From positions 1 through 64,000 of the forward strand of contig CALMYG010000081.1 of NCBI GenBank assembly GCA_937873455.1: a stretch of DNA of 64,000 nt, read 5' to 3'. Position numbers and translations under genes: made by a program. This document shows positions 50,042 through 61,604 of this stretch, in pieces. Every line of letters starts with the position of its first letter. Position 1 is the first letter of the stretch. Under the pieces are notes generated by a model that did not search any database, was not told the DNA's origin, and saw nothing but the letters and a program-made list of their open reading frames with translations. The DNA comes from an uncultured Verrucomicrobiota bacterium (GTDB lineage Bacteria; Verrucomicrobiota; Kiritimatiellia; CAIVKH01).

Positions 50042-53000
50042 ATGACAAGGATGGGTTGCGGGCGGTGGTTGCGGGCAACGGCGTGTGGGTGGATCATAAC
50101 GGTTTCTTCGGGGTGGGGCGCCGTAATCAATGCCGGGAACATTACCGGCGTGACCATCACCACCAATTCGGCCAACGGAATTTGGACCGCTTCCTTCGCC
50201 CTGCACAATGGCGGCTCCGCGGAAATTACGCCCTACGCTCCCGATCTGATCCGCGTGAACTATCACTGGGTTGGCCCGTTTAATGTCGAACAACCGATGA
50301 TTGCCAAGCCGCTGGGCGAATGGTCCGCGCATACCGCCTCCATCACCGATCAGGGCAGCCGGTACGTGATCCAAACCGCGCAGCTCGATGTCGAAGTCGA
50401 GAAGTCCCCCTTCAAGGTCCATTTTAAATCAAAGGCCGGATATTTCCTTTCCCAGGATGATTTCACCGAGCGCGACTCGGATTACAACTTCACCGGACAA
50501 CGCGGCACCGGCTCCTCCAAGTTGAAGAACCGCCGGTTTATGCCGACCGGCCAGGCCATCTTCGGTCTCGGCGAATACGGCGGGCCGATGAATCGCCGTA
50601 ACCGCGAGATGGATATCTGGAACACCGCCACCTACAACTGGGGGGAATTCACCAATCCGACCTACTTGCATATCCCGTTCTTCTACGGCGTGCAGCCGGC
50701 CGGCGGCGGCAATCCGGCCTTCACCTACGGCATTTTTCTCAACAATCCCTGCCGCGCACTCTTCAAATTCGGCACGGAAAGCGGCGACCGCTTGTCCTAT
50801 CAGGCCGGCGACGGACGCATGGACTATTTCTTTTTTGGCGGCGGCGGACAACACGCCTTTGCCACGGTCATGGACCGGTTCTCCGAACTCACGGGCCGAC
50901 CGACCTTCCTGCCCAAATGGGGGCTAGGCCACCACCTTTCCCGGTTCAGCTACGACAACCAGGACTGGGTTCAGTACATCGCCGACGAGGCTGGCAAGCA
51001 GGATATCCCCCTGGATGCCGTATACATGGATATTGACTACATGGACGCCGACGGCGATGGCGATATCGGCGATGGCCAGCTCCGCCAGTTGACCACGAAT
51101 TTCAAGTTCCCCAATCCAGCCGGCTTGATCAGTTTCTGCGAAGCCCGCGGGGTCAAGGTGGTTCCGCTGATTGAGCCCTGGCTGATTCCCGGCGACCCGT
51201 TGCACACCGAAGCCAACGCTTCCTTCCACTTCATCAAGGACAACGGCGGGAACACCGTTACCCGCAACATCTATGTCGGACCGGTTTCCTTCTTCGACTA
51301 CACCAGCACGCCGATGAACGATTGGTGGCGCGGCAAAATCCTCAACTGGATGAACAGTTTCAATTTCCACGGCATCTGGAACGACCTCACCGAGCCGGAG
51401 GGCGGCGATCAGATTCCCCACAACGGATTGTTGTGGCTGGACGGCAAGTACGGGGACAACAACGACTCCCGCCGTTTCTGGTCCAACGAGCGAAATTACT
51501 TCGGCCTGCGCGCGGCCAAGCAAAGTTTCGACACCATGATGGCCAAGAATCCGAACAAGCGACCCTTTGTGCTCAGCCGGTCCGGTACCGCCGGCCTTCA
51601 GCGTTATGGCGTAAGCTGGAGCGGCGATACCCGCGCGGATTGGTTCTACCATCGCGCCACCATTCGGTTCGGCGCGGGCGCGATGATTGCCGGCGCGGCC
51701 TGGTTCGGCAATGACGTCGGCGGTTTTGCCGGCACCGCCAGCGATGAATTGATGGTGCGCTCCACCGAGGCCAACGCCCTCACCCCGTTTTTCCGGAACC
51801 ACTGCGATAAAAGCGCAGCCAACCGCGAACCGTGGCGCTTTAATGATCCGTTCAAAAGCATGCAGCGCGAGCTGATCAAGTTCCGCTATAAACTCATGCC
51901 GTACTTCTACACCCTCGCTTACGAATCCGCCGTGATCAACGGCCGCCCGCTGAACGTGCCGCCGGTGTTCGACTATTACAACGACGCCAATACCTATACC
52001 GAGGCATCCGACTACGATTACCTGGTCGGTGAATTCCTGCTCGCCGCCCCGGTGTATGCCCAAGGCGCCAACAGCCGGCAAGTTTACCTGCCGTACCGCG
52101 ATGGCATCCACTGGTACAACTACCATAGCGGCTCGCGTCACAATGGCGGCCAGACCATCAACGTCAGCGCCCCGCTTGGAACCTTGCCCCTGTTTGTGCG
52201 CTCCGGTGCGATTATCCCCATGGGTCCATCCATGCAGTACGCCAATCAATTCCAGTCTCCGTGGATGGACATCAACTGCTGGCCGGATGGACAAAGCGAG
52301 TTCACCTTGTTCGAGGACGACGGCGAGTCCTGGAATTATCAAGCGAACGGCTATTCCAAGCGCCGGATGGTCAGCCATCGTACCGCCGCGTATTGGGACT
52401 TCACCATCGAAGCCAAACAAGGCAGCTATAACACCGGCAGCCGCGATTTTTATGTGTATGGGTACAACATCGGCACCAACGAGGTCACCGGCGTGCGGGT
52501 CAACGGGGCGGCGATTCCGCAGGTGACTAACTTCGATGACGCTCCGCAAGGCTGGCGCATGGCCGCGCCGGGCCGCGTGGGTGTGAAAGTTCCCGACAAC
52601 GGCGCTCACACCGCGATCCGCGTCAGTTTTGGCGATGTTGAGGATTCGATACAACTGGCGGCGGGCGCCTATTCGGTGTCGGAGACCAGCGGTGTAGCGC
52701 GGGTGTTTGTCTCGCGTACCGGCTCGGCCACCGGTACGGTGAGCGTGGCCTTCAATACGGCTAATGGCACCGCCATCGCCGGGGTGAATTATGCCAATAC
52801 CAGCGGTTCGCTGGTCTGGAATCCCGGCGACACCGCCAATAAATTCGTGGATGTGACCATCGTGGATGACCAGATTTACCAGGGCAACCTTACCTTCACG
52901 CTGAATCTGAGCAGTTCCATCGGGGCCAGCCTCGGCGCGCCCTCTTCAGCCGCCATCACCATTCTGGAAAATGATCCAGTGCCGCCGACGCTGGTGATCA

Positions 53001-54274
53001 CCAATCCCGCCGGGCCGATCGTGGTGAACGATGCCGTGACGAACATCGCGGTGCAAGGCGTCGCCAATGCATTGGAATGGTCGGGCTTGCGCTGGAGCAA
53101 CAGCCTGACCGGGGCCAGTGGATTGTCGCCGATCGCCTTTTACTGGACCATCCCCTCGGTGGGCCTCGGTGTCGGGACCAACCTCATCACTGTGACCGTC
53201 ACGAACGTCGGTGGTACGGTGGCGTCGGACAGTGCGGCGAGCCCGGTCTATGCCGACGGCTGGGCCACCAACGACAACGGCGGTTTTGGCTGGGGTCCAT
53301 GGGCGATTTATACAAGTTCCGCCGACGGCAACCAAAATGGGCGTTTCGTGGCGGATAACGATTCGGTCAATATCGGCCGCCCGGCCTGGGGACTTTATGC
53401 CAACAGCGGCAACTTGTCCGAGGCCAAGCGCCTCATGACCAATGCGCTTTCCGTTGGGCAGACGGTGAGTGTCAGTATGGACAATGGGTTTCTAGATCCC
53501 GGAGCGGGGACCGGGGTGGCCCTGCAAAATGCCGACGGTGTCACCCTCTGGGAATTTTTCTTCAACGGCGGCGATACGTATTACAGCATCAGCGGTGGAA
53601 CGACGGATGTAGGTTGGACCGACGGCGGAATCCAGGTGAGCTTCACGCTGACCGGACCGACCACGTACCGGGCCCTGATTACCCCGAATGGCGGGAATAC
53701 CCGGACGAACACCGGTAGCCTGATTTCCGCGGCCAACGGGGCCATTACGGTGTTCCGGGCCTGGAACTACAACGCCGGCGCCGGTTCCAGTTACGACTTC
53801 TTTTTCAATAACCTCACAATCACCGGAGGCGGCGGCGCGACCACCAACGCCACGGTCCAGGTCATTCGACCGGCCGCTTCGGAAAGCCTCATCCCCTCAG
53901 ACTGGCGCGCCCGCCATAACTTGACCGGGCCGAATTCCGGGGATCACGACGACAAGGACGGCGATGGCCGGACCAACTATGAGGAATACCTCGCCGATAC
54001 CGATCCCAACGATCCCGCCTCGGTGTTCAGCCGCATTGAAGGCCCGGTGTCGGCGGTCGAAGCGACCGGCGTCGTCTCGCTGTTGATTCCCGCGCCCACC
54101 ACCAACAGCCGCCTCTACGATCTGGCCTATACGACCAACTTGTTGCCGGATGGCATCTGGACCCCCGTCGGTTTGAATGTCACCGGTGCGCCGCTCGGTG
54201 GAAGCGTTACCCTCACCGTGACCAACCCGCCGGGCCCGGGCACATATTTCCGTGGCCGGGTTTTCCTGCCCTGA
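50042..54274 (+). CDS. Secreted GH31 glycosidase with Calx-beta and C-terminal EF-hand/TDP module
   Basis: A 1410-aa exported enzyme. A modest signal peptide (ATACGWIITVSSGWGA) is followed by a GH31 N-terminal beta domain and the catalytic barrel, with nucleophile D448 in GIWNDLTEP and acid/base D529 in SWSGDTRADW. Both match GH31 alpha-glucosidases/alpha-xylosidases. After the C-terminal beta domains come a Calx-beta domain (~864-979), Ig-like and jellyroll-like regions, then the Asp-rich loop DHDDKDGDGRTNYEEYLADTDP (written in part; ~1298-1320) and an ~85-aa terminal domain also found in the RCC1 protein. It probably degrades alpha-linked glycans at the cell surface. Confidence 0.92.
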   Translation: MTRMGCGRWLRATACGWIITVSSGWGAVINAGNITGVTITTNSANGIWTASFALHNGGSAEITPYAPDLIRVNYHWVGPFNVEQPMIAKPLGEWSAHTASITDQGSRYVIQTAQLDVEVEKSPFKVHFKSKAGYFLSQDDFTERDSDYNFTGQRGTGSSKLKNRRFMPTGQAIFGLGEYGGPMNRRNREMDIWNTATYNWGEFTNPTYLHIPFFYGVQPAGGGNPAFTYGIFLNNPCRALFKFGTESGDRLSYQAGDGRMDYFFFGGGGQHAFATVMDRFSELTGRPTFLPKWGLGHHLSRFSYDNQDWVQYIADEAGKQDIPLDAVYMDIDYMDADGDGDIGDGQLRQLTTNFKFPNPAGLISFCEARGVKVVPLIEPWLIPGDPLHTEANASFHFIKDNGGNTVTRNIYVGPVSFFDYTSTPMNDWWRGKILNWMNSFNFHGIWNDLTEPEGGDQIPHNGLLWLDGKYGDNNDSRRFWSNERNYFGLRAAKQSFDTMMAKNPNKRPFVLSRSGTAGLQRYGVSWSGDTRADWFYHRATIRFGAGAMIAGAAWFGNDVGGFAGTASDELMVRSTEANALTPFFRNHCDKSAANREPWRFNDPFKSMQRELIKFRYKLMPYFYTLAYESAVINGRPLNVPPVFDYYNDANTYTEASDYDYLVGEFLLAAPVYAQGANSRQVYLPYRDGIHWYNYHSGSRHNGGQTINVSAPLGTLPLFVRSGAIIPMGPSMQYANQFQSPWMDINCWPDGQSEFTLFEDDGESWNYQANGYSKRRMVSHRTAAYWDFTIEAKQGSYNTGSRDFYVYGYNIGTNEVTGVRVNGAAIPQVTNFDDAPQGWRMAAPGRVGVKVPDNGAHTAIRVSFGDVEDSIQLAAGAYSVSETSGVARVFVSRTGSATGTVSVAFNTANGTAIAGVNYANTSGSLVWNPGDTANKFVDVTIVDDQIYQGNLTFTLNLSSSIGASLGAPSSAAITILENDPVPPTLVITNPAGPIVVNDAVTNIAVQGVANALEWSGLRWSNSLTGASGLSPIAFYWTIPSVGLGVGTNLITVTVTNVGGTVASDSAASPVYADGWATNDNGGFGWGPWAIYTSSADGNQNGRFVADNDSVNIGRPAWGLYANSGNLSEAKRLMTNALSVGQTVSVSMDNGFLDPGAGTGVALQNADGVTLWEFFFNGGDTYYSISGGTTDVGWTDGGIQVSFTLTGPTTYRALITPNGGNTRTNTGSLISAANGAITVFRAWNYNAGAGSSYDFFFNNLTITGGGGATTNATVQVIRPAASESLIPSDWRARHNLTGPNSGDHDDKDGDGRTNYEEYLADTDPNDPASVFSRIEGPVSAVEATGVVSLLIPAPTTNSRLYDLAYTTNLLPDGIWTPVGLNVTGAPLGGSVTLTVTNPPGPGTYFRGRVFLP

Positions 54275-56039: not shown

Positions 56040-58397
56040 CTAACCGTTCGCCGTCCAGGTGGCAAGGTCGGTTCCGGCCAAGAAGCTCTTGGTGGCTTCG
56101 AGCGCCGCTTCGCGTCCGTTGATGATCACGGTGGAAAACCGGTCGTGGAGCACAAAGGTCGGGCGGCACGCGCCGTAGCCTTTTTGCGTGTACTGCGTAT
56201 CCATGTGCAATACGCCGTTTTTTACCGAGGCGGTTATGGCCAGGCGGCTGCGTTTGCCGTCGCGGTACTTTTCGGTAATGCCGTCGTCGAAGGCGTAGGT
56301 GGTGGCGGCAGTTCCGGTGCTGTCGTTTTTCAGGAAGACATGAAACGCGACCGCGCGTCCGTCGAACCCATTGGTTTCCGGCAACTTCGGGGTCATCGGC
56401 ACGATCGCGTTTTCCCGGAAATACAAGGGCGTTTGCAGCGCGCCGGGGGTCACCGATCGTTTCTGACCGCCTTCGAGCCATTGATCCTCCATGGTGGAGA
56501 ACCATCGCCCGGGTCCGGGAAGAATCACCTCACGGGTTCGCTCGTGTTCGGAAAGAATGGGCGCCTGGAGAATGTCCGGGCCGGCCAGGAACGCATCGTC
56601 GATCCGGCCGAGCGGCAGCGCCTCGGTGTCCTCAAAGTCATGGAAGAGGGGACGCAGGATGGCTTCGCCTTCTTCTTCCTGCCGGATAAACAGGTTGTAG
56701 AGGTAAGGCCGCAGGGCGTAACGCAGTTGAATGTAGTGTTTCATGACCCGGAGGGTCTGATCATCAAACGCCCAAGGTTCCTGATGGCGCGTGCCAATCA
56801 TGGAGTGGTTGCGGCAGAAGGGGAAGAGGAAGCAGGTCTTGACCCAATCCTGGATCAACTGCGGGGTGGCGTCACCGGCGAAGCCGCCGATGTCCGGGCC
56901 ATTGAACGGAACGCCGGAAAGCGCGAGGTTGAGCGATACGGCGATGCAGTTGCGCAGGTAGTGATAACTGGACATGTTGTCGCCGGTCCAGAGCGCGGCG
57001 TTTTTGCCGATGCCGAGATAGCCGGAGCGGCTGATGACAAACGGACGTTCGCCCGGGTGCGCGGCGGCGAAGCCGGCCCGCGTCGCCTCGGCCATGCCGG
57101 ATGCGTATTGGTTGTGGTAGGCATCGTGCGGTTGTTTGCCGCGGTTAAACAACATATCTTCATTGAGTACGCTGCCGGTGGAGGGATCGTTCATGTCGAT
57201 CCAGCAGCCGTGAAAGCCGTGCGCGGCGAAGTCCCGCACCCACTTGGCCCACCAGCGGCGGGTTTCGGGTAGGGAAAAATCCGGGAATACGGTTTCGCCT
57301 GGCCAAACCAGTCCGACAAAATCATCGCCCTGGGGATTTTTACAGAAAACATCGGCTTTTTTGCCGGAGTCGTAGACCGGATATTTTTTCTCTTTCTTCA
57401 CCCCGGGATCGATGATCGGCACCACCTTGCGGCCCTTGGCGGCGAGGCGTTTCAACGTGCGGTCGATGGAGGGAAAATAGTCCTTGTTGAAGGTGAAAAC
57501 CTTGAACGAGTCCATGTAATCGATATCGACCCACAGGCCATCGCAGGGAATGCCGTGTTTGGTGAAGTTTTCGTCGAGTTCATTCAGGCAGACTTCAGAC
57601 TTGTAACCCCAGCGGCATTGATGATAACCGAGCGCCCAGGCCGGCGGGAGGGGCGTCACCCCGACCAGCTTCTGCATTTTACGGGTGAGTTCGGCGAGGC
57701 TGGGACCGACGATGATGTAGAGGTCGGGCATGCCGTTTTCCGCGCCGAAGGTTATGAATTTTTTCTCGGAACCGCCCAGGTTCATTTGGCCGCCGCCGAT
57801 CTTGATGGTGGCGCCGGTCGAGGCGAAGGCCGCGTGCGGATTGTCCAGCAGCAGCCCGAGATAGGTGTTGCCGCGCTTCACGATGATGTAGGGCATGCTG
57901 GCGTACATCGGATCGGGGCGGTCGTGGGCGATTTCATTCCAGTGGAAGTCGGCGAAAATGTCGGTATTCCAGAACTTGGTTTGAATGCCGGAGAGTTCGA
58001 GACCCCGCATTTTTTCGCCCATGCCGTAGAATTGCATGTCCGGCGTTTGTTCCAGCACGAAAACCGAGCGCTTGCCGCAGATGCCGAAGGTCATGCCTTT
58101 CGGGGTGGTTAGCAGGGGTTCACGCCCAGGTCCGGAAACGGTCAGACCAAAGGGTTCGGACAGGGTAAGGCGGTAAGGCGCGGCAGACGGTTTACGCGAC
58201 ATCGGGGGCGGACGCAACCCGGCCTGCGAAGCGCTCTTCTTCCAGAACGGTGACGAAGCGGTCAGCCGGAAGATTCCGTCCTGATGAGAGGTCACCGACA
58301 TCTTCAGGGGCGTAGACCCAATTTTAACGGTTTGGTTCGGTCGAACCGAGCGGGCAAAGGTGAAGTTGGCGACGTGAGGAATTTTTCTAAAATACAT
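56040..58397 (-). CDS. GH31 alpha-glycosidase, cytoplasmic
   Basis: A 785-aa GH31 enzyme without signal peptide. Nucleophile D401 lies in GCWIDMNDPS and acid/base D473 in ALWTGDNMSS. The sequence also has the GH31 N-terminal segments (MQFYGMGEKMRGLELSG) and PPAWALGYHQCRWGY. It would hydrolyse alpha-glucosides or alpha-xylosides taken up after extracellular digestion; substrate cannot be fixed by eye. It is convergent with the aminotransferase gene (19-base gap holding a 6-bp GCGCCA/TGGCGC stem). A degenerate LacI-type dyad lies 20 bases upstream, so it may share regulation with the secreted GH31. Confidence 0.94.
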   Translation of the reverse strand: MYFRKIPHVANFTFARSVRPNQTVKIGSTPLKMSVTSHQDGIFRLTASSPFWKKSASQAGLRPPPMSRKPSAAPYRLTLSEPFGLTVSGPGREPLLTTPKGMTFGICGKRSVFVLEQTPDMQFYGMGEKMRGLELSGIQTKFWNTDIFADFHWNEIAHDRPDPMYASMPYIIVKRGNTYLGLLLDNPHAAFASTGATIKIGGGQMNLGGSEKKFITFGAENGMPDLYIIVGPSLAELTRKMQKLVGVTPLPPAWALGYHQCRWGYKSEVCLNELDENFTKHGIPCDGLWVDIDYMDSFKVFTFNKDYFPSIDRTLKRLAAKGRKVVPIIDPGVKKEKKYPVYDSGKKADVFCKNPQGDDFVGLVWPGETVFPDFSLPETRRWWAKWVRDFAAHGFHGCWIDMNDPSTGSVLNEDMLFNRGKQPHDAYHNQYASGMAEATRAGFAAAHPGERPFVISRSGYLGIGKNAALWTGDNMSSYHYLRNCIAVSLNLALSGVPFNGPDIGGFAGDATPQLIQDWVKTCFLFPFCRNHSMIGTRHQEPWAFDDQTLRVMKHYIQLRYALRPYLYNLFIRQEEEGEAILRPLFHDFEDTEALPLGRIDDAFLAGPDILQAPILSEHERTREVILPGPGRWFSTMEDQWLEGGQKRSVTPGALQTPLYFRENAIVPMTPKLPETNGFDGRAVAFHVFLKNDSTGTAATTYAFDDGITEKYRDGKRSRLAITASVKNGVLHMDTQYTQKGYGACRPTFVLHDRFSTVIINGREAALEATKSFLAGTDLATWTANG

Positions 58398-58479: not shown

Positions 58480-58680
58480 TCACAGGAAGCGCACCAGCCG
58501 CGCGCTGAGGAAGGCGATCAGGAGAACGACGGCGACGATCCAGATCACGGCCCGGCGGGCCGGGTGAGCGGCCGGAAATTCGTAGCCGCAGACCGGGCAC
58601 CGGTTATGGTTGGCCTCGACCTCGACACCGCAGGACGGGCATTCGCGGGTGCCGAAATGTTTGTCGATGTGAATCGCCAT
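58480..58680 (-). CDS. Small zinc-ribbon membrane protein
   Basis: A 66-aa protein with two CxxC pairs (CPSCGVEVEANHNRCPVCGY) forming a zinc ribbon, followed by one transmembrane helix (AVIWIVAVVLLIAFLSARLV). Such tiny ribbon-helix proteins are common and uncharacterised. The Met at 58680 is chosen because the ribbon begins a few residues later; the frame upstream lies within lpxD. It follows lpxD by 11 bases on the same strand. Confidence 0.75.
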   Translation of the reverse strand: MAIHIDKHFGTRECPSCGVEVEANHNRCPVCGYEFPAAHPARRAVIWIVAVVLLIAFLSARLVRFL

Positions 58681-58691
58681 GACCGGGGATT

Positions 58692-59717
58692 TTACCCCGG
58701 TGTGGCTGCGCGCTTCAAGTCCCGCATGAAGTCGGGAAGTTTTTTCAGGGCCGCCCATTGGCGTAGGGTTTGCTGGTGGGGTTCGGCCGGATAACCGACC
58801 ACGGTTTGTCCGGGGGCGATGTCGCCGGTGATGCCGGAGCCGCCGCCGATTCTCACGCCCGATCCGATGGTGACATGGTCCTTGATGGCCACGCAACCGC
58901 CGCACATCACCCCGTCGCCCATGGTCACGGACCCGGCGACGCCGGTGCAGGCGGCGATCACGCAGCAGCGGCCGATGCGGCAGTTGTGGCCGATCTGTAC
59001 GAGGTTATCGATTTTGGTTCCCGCTCCGATGACGGTGGCGCTGAATTTGCCCCGGTCGACGGTACTGTTGGCCCCGATTTCCACGCCGTCTTCGATGACG
59101 ACATTGCCGATGTGGGGGATTTTCACCAGACTTCGTCGATCGGGGGAGGGGCGATAACCAAAACCGTCGCCGCCGATGGCAACGTTGGGCTGAAGAATGA
59201 CACCGTTGCCGAGTACGCAGCGCTCGCGAATGATGACTCCTGGCCACAACACGCATTGCGCGCCGATGACGGTTTCATCGAGCACGGTGACGTTGGGATA
59301 CAATTTAGCGCCCGGACCGATGCGCACGGAAGCGCCGACGTAGCAGCCCGCACCGACGATTACGTTTTCGCCGATCTGGGCGGTGGGGTGGACGGTGGCG
59401 TCGGGGTGAATGCCGGTTTCGGCGACCGGGGCGGGCAGCTCAAAAAGAGCCAGGGCCAAGGCCAGAGCCAGATCGGCGTTTTTAACCCGGATCAGGGCGC
59501 GCCCGGGACCAGGTTCGGCTTCCAGTTCCTCGCTGATCAGAGCGGCACCAGCCCCGGAGGTTTGCCAGCGCGCGAGGTAGCTCCGGCTGCCGATGAAGGT
59601 TAGGTGGGTATCGCCGGCTTTTTCGATGTGTTCGATGCCGGAAAGGATTCGGTCGGGATTGCCGATGAGGGTTCCCTCAACGGTACGGGCAAGGTCGGAA
59701 GCGGTGTAGGTTTTGAT
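58692..59717 (-). CDS. lpxD: UDP-3-O-acylglucosamine N-acyltransferase LpxD, apparent AUC start
   Basis: LpxD adds the second acyl chain in lipid A synthesis. The frame contains a complete N-terminal uridine-binding domain ([42 protein letters not shown]) and a left-handed beta helix of hexapeptide repeats with the catalytic His in [10 protein letters not shown] (about residue 244). Counting from the ATC at 59717 gives 341 aa, the family's usual length. The frame has no ATG, GTG or TTG between an upstream stop near 59780 and a TTG at 59459, which would delete the whole N-terminal domain. An AGGAA ribosome site lies at normal distance before the ATC. Either AUC is used for initiation or a start codon was mutated. 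Confidence 0.88.
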
Positions 59718-59835
59718 GGGAGTTCCTGAAGTAAAACTAACGTATAGTAAAATCGGACGTGAACGTCGAGTGGCGTTTTAGGGGAGGTCAGTACTCGTAC
59801 ACCTACTCGTACACGCGAATCTCTTGCGGTGAAGC

Positions 59836-59921
59836 GGCCACGTCCTAACGGACGCAGCTACGGAAGAGGATGCGGAAGCGTATAAAGTTCGACGTGTAGC
59901 TGCGTTCGTTAGTACGTGGCC
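59836..59921. repeat. Facing pair of GTAG-type REP hairpins
   Basis: 59836-59861 (minus strand) and 59896-59921 (plus strand) are 26-base copies differing at two positions. Each begins GTAGCTG and contains a short stem around a GTTA loop: CGTCC/GGACG in the first, and a CGT/ACG-type stem in the second. The tail-to-tail arrangement resembles a BIME. Confidence 0.85.
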
Positions 59922-60082: not shown

Positions 60083-60154
60083 CCACCGTCTCACGACGGC
60101 GGCTACGGGGAGGACGCGCGCCGCTGCGTGTAGCTGCGTTCGTTAGAACGTGGC
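60083..60154. repeat. Second pair of GTAG-type REP hairpins
   Basis: 60083-60106 (minus strand): GTAG, then stem CCGCCGTC/GACGGTGG with one G-T pair and loop GTGA. 60130-60154 (plus strand): GTAGCTG, then stem CGTTC/GAACG with loop GTTA. The second ends 9 bases before the hipA stop codon. Confidence 0.85.
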
Positions 60155-60163
60155 GATTTCCGC

Positions 60164-61387
60164 TTATCCCCCGCGTTCGCCCGTCAAAGCGGCCAGCCGG
60201 TCGTTCACCAGCGCGTGATACCGCGCTTTGGCGTCGGGGGAAAGCGCGCTTCCGCTGATGGTGGCTGACCAGTCCACGCGATGCAGCCTTTCCAGCGTGC
60301 GCCGGATGCGGAGCGGCGGCAGCGCGCAGAGCTCGCGGCCAATGCGCTCCACAAGAAGCGAAGGATCGAATCCCTGTTTCATGCCACCAAACGCCAGCGC
60401 GCTCTCCTCCTCGTTATCAATCAGGATCGCGGTGTTCAGGTAATCATACGCCGGAGCCAGTTCGATCAGGGGGCCACGCTCGATGAGCGACCAGTTTTTC
60501 AGATGCATGTCCCCGTTGCCGATGATCCAGTTGAACAGAAACCGGTCAAAAAAGCGGGCCAATTGGAGGGCCGGATTGCTGGTAAAGCGCCGCAGTAGAT
60601 CCGTCAGCGTTTCCACCGTGCCGTGATATTTCCACGAGGACGGGATTTCCAAAAGCTGACAGGCATCCTCCACGCGCAGGCGGATGCGTCCACCCGTGCC
60701 CTGCCGGTCAAACCGCTCGATCCAGAAGACCGGTCGCTGATCCCGGCTCCAGACCAGTCCGCAGGCGGGCACCTCCACCCCCGCCAAACGGGCCAGCTCC
60801 ATGCTCAACGCCTCGTTGCTGGCTGCTTCCGGATAAGCCGTCGGACTCGGCTTCAAGATGTAGGTTCCCCCTTCGGCCATGGCGCGGAAACATCCATCCC
60901 GCCGGGAAAAAATCGCCGAAACCTTGGGCTGCACGCCGGAGATCGACATGCGGGGCGCCTCGCGGGAGTGAAAGGTGATCAACGCGCCCACCTCATACGG
61001 GAGCGCCTCGTCACCCGGTTTAATGCGCGCCCTTTTCTTGCCACTTCTGGCCAGGCGCACAAGCGATGCGCCGTTATCTTGTCCCTCGGGGAGGATCGTC
61101 AACATGCCGGTGACATCGCGGCCTACCGCCAGCAACTGCCCCCATTTGTCTTGGCGATCCAGCTTGGCGGCGGTGAGAAGCTGTTCCAGCAAGACGCCTT
61201 CAGGAAGGAGGCCATCGAACGGCGGCGGAAAGTCATCCCAAACCTTTTCGCCCAGTTTTACCGGCAGATTCAGGAACGCGGGCGGCCCTGCATAGCCCGG
61301 CACATAGGCAAAGCGATAACCGTCCGTCCGGCGTTCAAGCACCCCGGCGCGCGTTCCGCCGACAAAAACATGGAGCCTATCGCTCAA
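60164..61387 (-). CDS. hipA: HipA family serine/threonine kinase toxin
   Basis: A 407-aa HipA. The N-terminal domain (HVFVGGTRAGVL; FDGLLPEG) is followed by the kinase fold with ATP loop SISGVQPKVS, GTYILKP, catalytic Asp in GNGDMHLKNWSL and metal-binding Asp in APAYDYLNT. HipA of E. coli phosphorylates glutamyl-tRNA synthetase and induces dormancy; the target here is unknown. I set the start at TTG 61387, seven bases after AGGAGA and overlapping the hipB stop by 11 bases; a longer upstream frame is antitoxin antisense-frame sequence. It forms an operon with hipB. Confidence 0.9.
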   Translation of the reverse strand: MSDRLHVFVGGTRAGVLERRTDGYRFAYVPGYAGPPAFLNLPVKLGEKVWDDFPPPFDGLLPEGVLLEQLLTAAKLDRQDKWGQLLAVGRDVTGMLTILPEGQDNGASLVRLARSGKKRARIKPGDEALPYEVGALITFHSREAPRMSISGVQPKVSAIFSRRDGCFRAMAEGGTYILKPSPTAYPEAASNEALSMELARLAGVEVPACGLVWSRDQRPVFWIERFDRQGTGGRIRLRVEDACQLLEIPSSWKYHGTVETLTDLLRRFTSNPALQLARFFDRFLFNWIIGNGDMHLKNWSLIERGPLIELAPAYDYLNTAILIDNEEESALAFGGMKQGFDPSLLVERIGRELCALPPLRIRRTLERLHRVDWSATISGSALSPDAKARYHALVNDRLAALTGERGG

Positions 61388-61604
61388 GCCGGATCTCCTC
61401 GCCCAGTGGACTGCGGCCAACCAGCTCAAAGCCCAGCGAGCCCAAGACCGCCACGAAGTTGGACAAGGTGATGTCGGTTCGGCCGGCTTCCAGCTTGTAA
61501 ACCACGGTTTCGCCGACTCCGGCAAGCTCGGCCAGTTCCTTTTGCCGTAACCCCTGCGCCTTGCGCGCCTTCACGATCGCTCCGGAAAGATTGCTTGTTT
61601 TCAT
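61377..61604 (-). CDS. hipB: HipB-like XRE family antitoxin
   Basis: A 75-aa helix-turn-helix protein (IVKARKAQGLRQKELAELAGVGETVVYKLEAG, shown in part) of the Cro/C1 type, followed by TLSNFVAVLGSLGFEL. It should neutralise HipA and repress the operon. It is slightly shorter than E. coli HipB (88 aa). ATG at 61604. No clear operator is seen upstream; a short GGATATCAT dyad-like sequence lies at 61616-61624. Confidence 0.88.
   Translation of the reverse strand: MKTSNLSGAIVKARKAQGLRQKELAELAGVGETVVYKLEAGRTDITLSNFVAVLGSLGFELVGRSPLGEEIRLER

Follow-up and report, generated by a model that had tools for sequence, protein, structure and literature searches.

The lpxD2 locus

The window, by which is meant the whole 64,000-nucleotide stretch analysed here, carries on its minus strand at 58692–59717 a gene of 341 codons and a stop codon, counted from an ATC. 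The gene is assigned, by comparison with other genomes, as a second, stand-alone LpxD paralogue and is here called lpxD2. Its product is by sequence a full-domain member of the LpxD family, a predicted N-acyltransferase acting on UDP-3-O-acyl-glucosamine. NCBIfam LpxD profiles match residues 3–336 and 8–330 of the protein, which passes the TIGR01853 equivalog with 339.1 bits against a curated cut-off of 242.5; the Pfam LpxD model matches residues 23–91, and Hexapep is also matched. An alignment to Chlamydia trachomatis LpxD begins at residue 3 and places F41, Y47, H244 and H281 opposite F43, Y49, H247 and H284. In the C. trachomatis enzyme F43 and Y49 are the uracil-stacking residues, and the aligned histidines presumably include the catalytic histidine of the left-handed beta-helix. 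The protein thus has the architecture of an LpxD, with an N-terminal uridine-binding domain and a left-handed beta-helix containing the catalytic histidine.

Between lpxD2 and the gene upstream lie three copies of a REP-like palindromic repeat, GCCACGTNCTAACGNACGCAGCTAC, at 59837–59861, 59896–59920 and 60130–60154; with up to 3 mismatches allowed, the genome holds 23 matches to this repeat and 0 to a reversed control pattern. Directly upstream of lpxD2, at 60164–61604, are a HipA-like kinase of 453 residues and a 75-residue helix-turn-helix partner, likely a pair of the HipBA toxin–antitoxin type. On the other side, and on the strand of lpxD2, a predicted 66-residue protein (58480–58680) begins 11 nt past the lpxD2 stop; it has CxxC motifs and, at its C terminus, a hydrophobic segment. 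Two large glycoside hydrolases are found nearby, one at 56040–58397 assigned to GH31 by Pfam and one at 50042–54274 that looks like GH31 by sequence only.

The reading frame and its leader

The lpxD2 frame is open between a TAA at about 59780 and the TAA at 58694–58692. It contains no ATG, GTG or TTG between the upstream stop and the TTG at 59459–59457 (minus strand), which is the first in-frame standard start and lies 86 codons downstream of the ATC at 59717–59715. Use of this TTG would delete the N-terminal domain, encoded by the 86 codons at 59717–59460 (minus strand) and including F41 and Y47. The original prediction, that this lpxD lacks an AUG, GUG or UUG start and that the 86-codon extension encodes the uridine-binding domain, is therefore borne out, the latter by the NCBIfam, Pfam and C. 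trachomatis alignments and by base composition. GC content at codon position 3 is 0.68 in the stretch from ATC to TTG and 0.76 over the remainder of the gene, but 0.24 in the 21 codons 5′ of the ATC. The disappearance of this bias upstream indicates that coding starts at about the ATC.

From 59717 the gene opens ATC AAA ACC TAC ACC. The in-frame codons preceding it read AAC GCC ACT CGA CGT TCA CGT CCG ATT TTA and then CTA TAC GTT AGT TTT ACT TCA GGA ACT CCC. A start at an upstream or out-of-frame ATG combined with a frameshift was rejected, as ATG is absent from all frames within about 90 nt upstream.

A Shine–Dalgarno-like AGGA at 59727–59724 (minus strand) precedes the ATC by 6 nt, so that the 341-residue product does, as had been proposed, begin at normal spacing from such a motif. 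Motifs of this kind at such a distance occur before 43% of 132 genes in the genome, compared with 12.5% in shuffled sequences, which makes the AGGA a reasonable but modest cue. Its pairing is worth about −4.3 kcal/mol. Little structure is predicted for the 55 nt surrounding it (−0.9 kcal/mol), while a longer leader of 78 nt folds at −13.6 kcal/mol with the AGGA partly paired. The hexamer TACTAT, at 59749–59744, had also been put forward as a hint of a promoter; scoring gave no match to a sigma-70-type site there, leaving that suggestion unsupported. Taken as a whole, the sequence supports the ATC as the sole plausible full-length start of lpxD2.

Start positions in related genes

Start positions were compared across 140 loci (some of them duplicates) by a script that moved upstream from each LpxD match and recorded standard starts up to residue 25. 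Only two loci lacked one, L001 and L035, and both are the window locus; the roughly 135 other lpxD genes compared all have a standard start 5′ of the N-terminal domain. Within its paralogue clade, the ATC aligns with starts that are ATG or TTG. ATG occupies the column in about 25 Bacteroidota and in one relative from the same class as the window genome (G035), the carriers including, besides G035, Lutibacter, Algibacter, Winogradskyella, Tenacibaculum and Polaribacter. TTG occupies it in two copies, from Krumholzibacteriia and Desulfobacterales. In the three closest relatives, G145 (69% identity) and G073 and G074 (67%), the ATG is displaced from this position by one codon inward or four outward.

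With relatives starting at or near the same column, the full-length reading of lpxD2 and its start position are well supported. The alignment that the original prediction had called for thus returns ATG in the relatives, or TTG in two, and the accompanying search for a relative whose start lies elsewhere and still yields the full domain leaves the ATC standing. No standard start in lpxD2 yields the conserved N-terminus; the ATC itself is found in the window genome only, shared by none of the relatives compared, which have ATG or TTG. The ancestral codon would most simply have been ATG, from which ATC differs by a single base change.

A second lpxD paralogue

The genome contains another lpxD, at C169:26269–27246, which starts with ATG and is 36% identical to the window protein. 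It adjoins genes that, named from their sequence, are ompH- and bamA-like, forming a bamA–ompH–lpxD cluster, and in a tree it groups with genes of the same family and class. In the same tree the window protein falls within a clade of 34 rows, with a support of 99, composed mostly of Bacteroidota with single members of other phyla. Among the 346 genomes of the class, matches at the level of the clade (53% identity or more) were found in five: the window genome, G145, G073, G074 and G035. G145 and G035 likewise carry both copies, whereas the same-genus genome G001 has the canonical lpxD and no lpxD2. No conserved gene neighbourhood of lpxD2 was seen in ten loci. The clade (L082–L109, L005 and L056–L058) takes in Flavobacteriaceae, a few genomes of the window's class (one of them titled Lentisphaerae), Krumholzibacteriia and Desulfobacterales.

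The window gene was accordingly rejected as the canonical lpxD of its genome, a role filled by the C169 gene. Tree and distribution identify it as an orphan, patchily distributed and horizontally scattered second paralogue, for which the name 'LpxD2' is coined here. It shares with canonical LpxD (TIGR01853; C. trachomatis 2iu8, E. coli 3eh0) the same domains at full length and a score above the family cut-off, but differs in its orphan locus, its separate and well-supported clade of mostly Bacteroidota and its ATC in place of ATG. The description of the window gene as an essential lipid A gene is thus not upheld. As a scattered second paralogue, lpxD2 need not be lethal when lost, and its translation can presumably cease without killing the cell.

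Non-canonical initiation in the genome

Another gene of this genome with no standard start is infC (L181, G000:C176:67363–67854), whose conserved N-terminus begins at an ATT after a Shine–Dalgarno-like motif. Of the eight genomes of the family (L181 and L262–L268), seven have ATT as the infC start and one has ATA, and non-canonical initiation is therefore native to this lineage. In E. coli the odd start of infC is known to autoregulate IF3. The infC genes of the family serve as a positive control, in that a conserved non-canonical start is detectable by this kind of comparison; lpxD2 is not such a case. The two genes are alike in having an AUH start behind a Shine–Dalgarno-like motif, seen for infC in the window genome and seven relatives. 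They differ in that the infC start is conserved across the family, while the ATC of lpxD2 occurs in one genome and has no evident feedback. Standard gene callers would probably mis-start infC in this family.

A scan of 857 kb of the window genome against 1.08 Mb of the same-genus G001, with overlapping frames removed, found no other gene convincingly lacking a standard start among 187 whose start could be tested. The single candidate, a 133-codon frame with 39% identity, aligns with the central part of its partner and was set aside as an apparent shadow frame. On the same grounds, the idea that ATC starts are in general use here was rejected.

Weak non-canonical starts are documented in other bacteria. 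AUU and AUA starts work there at reduced yield (PMC13009471). In S. aureus, cvfC1 (AUU) and ccpN (AUA) have weak starts that lower protein yield, as may be the case for lpxD2; theirs are conserved in relatives and have extended Shine–Dalgarno pairing, whereas lpxD2 has only the four-base AGGA (PMC13009471). E. coli pcnB (AUU; Binns & Masters 2002, as cited in PMC13009471) is likewise a chromosomal gene, kept low by its weak start codon; in that case the effect was established by experiment, and for AUU. In a reconstituted system, according to PMC10158994, IF3 acts against weak third-base pairs, and initiation at AUU read by the CAU anticodon falls as IF3 rises. Poor initiation would, by analogy, be expected when AUC is read by the initiator CAU.

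Explanations for the ATC codon

The original prediction had offered three explanations, namely weak AUC initiation, a mutated ATG and a base-call error. This was the right set, but the first two are not mutually exclusive. Most broadly, lpxD2 is a spare copy and not the main lpxD of the cell, and it is probably either weakly translated or starting to decay. The preferred specific reading, in which we place about even confidence, is that ATG really did change to ATC, in a paralogue the cell can dispense with, and that some weak initiation persists at AUC. In this scheme, lpxD2 is a second, orphan LpxD paralogue that has spread between phyla by horizontal transfer, and its ancestral start, most simply ATG, would have turned into ATC at 59717–59715. 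Ribosomes would still begin there with fMet, at a rate that is a small fraction of that at AUG. The protein would accordingly be made at a low level, which the cell would tolerate because the essential function is supplied by the canonical gene. The ATG or TTG of relatives at the start column, the AGGA 6 nt upstream with little structure in the short stretch around it, the intact frame with its conserved positions largely kept, the native AUU and AUA starts of infC and the presence of a canonical lpxD all speak for it. Against it are the restriction of the ATC to one genome, unlike the infC start, a somewhat faster rate of change than in the sister sequence, and the poor initiation expected of AUC given the action of IF3.

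The same rate bears on a rather less probable explanation, that a recent mutation destroyed the start codon and left lpxD2 an early pseudogene without meaningful translation, as yet bearing no other lesion and tolerated through the canonical lpxD. The window protein has 45 unique changes compared with 23 in its sister G145 (Tajima chi-square about 7.1, calculated by hand), consistent with faster change on the window branch, which could reflect relaxed constraint; against G073 the counts are 45 and 31, not clearly faster. Early decay would also suit a gene that is dispensable by its distribution, missing from G001 of the same genus and from most of the class, and an ATC conserved in no relative. 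It fits less well with a frame free of stops and frameshifts, presumed catalytic and uracil-contact residues that are retained, and an intact Shine–Dalgarno-like motif. Nor did conserved positions indicate decay, since at 56 positions that do not vary in the rest of the clade the window protein departs twice, where other members depart 0–4 times. Rate and conservation together are compatible with weak use as well as with incipient decay.

That the organism has ATG, and that the ATC is a base-call, assembly or strain-mixture error, we regard as unlikely. The sequence comes from a draft, metagenome-type assembly of 197 contigs, estimated to be 92.6% complete, and a single substitution would turn the likely ancestral codon into ATC. 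However, lpxD2 has no other sign of error, and the finding that none of the 187 testable genes convincingly lacks a standard start suggests that start-codon errors are infrequent in this assembly.

It is very unlikely that the AUC is a selected, regulatory weak start, holding a second acyltransferase at trace level in an IF3-responsive manner for alternative lipid A acylation under some conditions. Least probable of all is translation of an extended or truncated protein from the ATT at 59753–59751 or the TTG at 59459, since, although both are in frame, the upstream stretch lacks coding bias, relatives begin at the ATC column and the TTG would remove the uridine-binding domain that relatives keep.

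Implications

A standard gene caller would begin lpxD2 at TTG 59459 and so lose a whole domain. To our knowledge, natural AUC starts in bacteria have rarely been documented, and a literature search for bacterial AUC or ATC starts yielded almost only mitochondrial papers. If real, the ATC of lpxD2 would add one more case to the known weak starts, here in a paralogue that is dispensable. Of more lasting value is the group of paralogues itself, predicted by sequence to be LpxD and moving between phyla.
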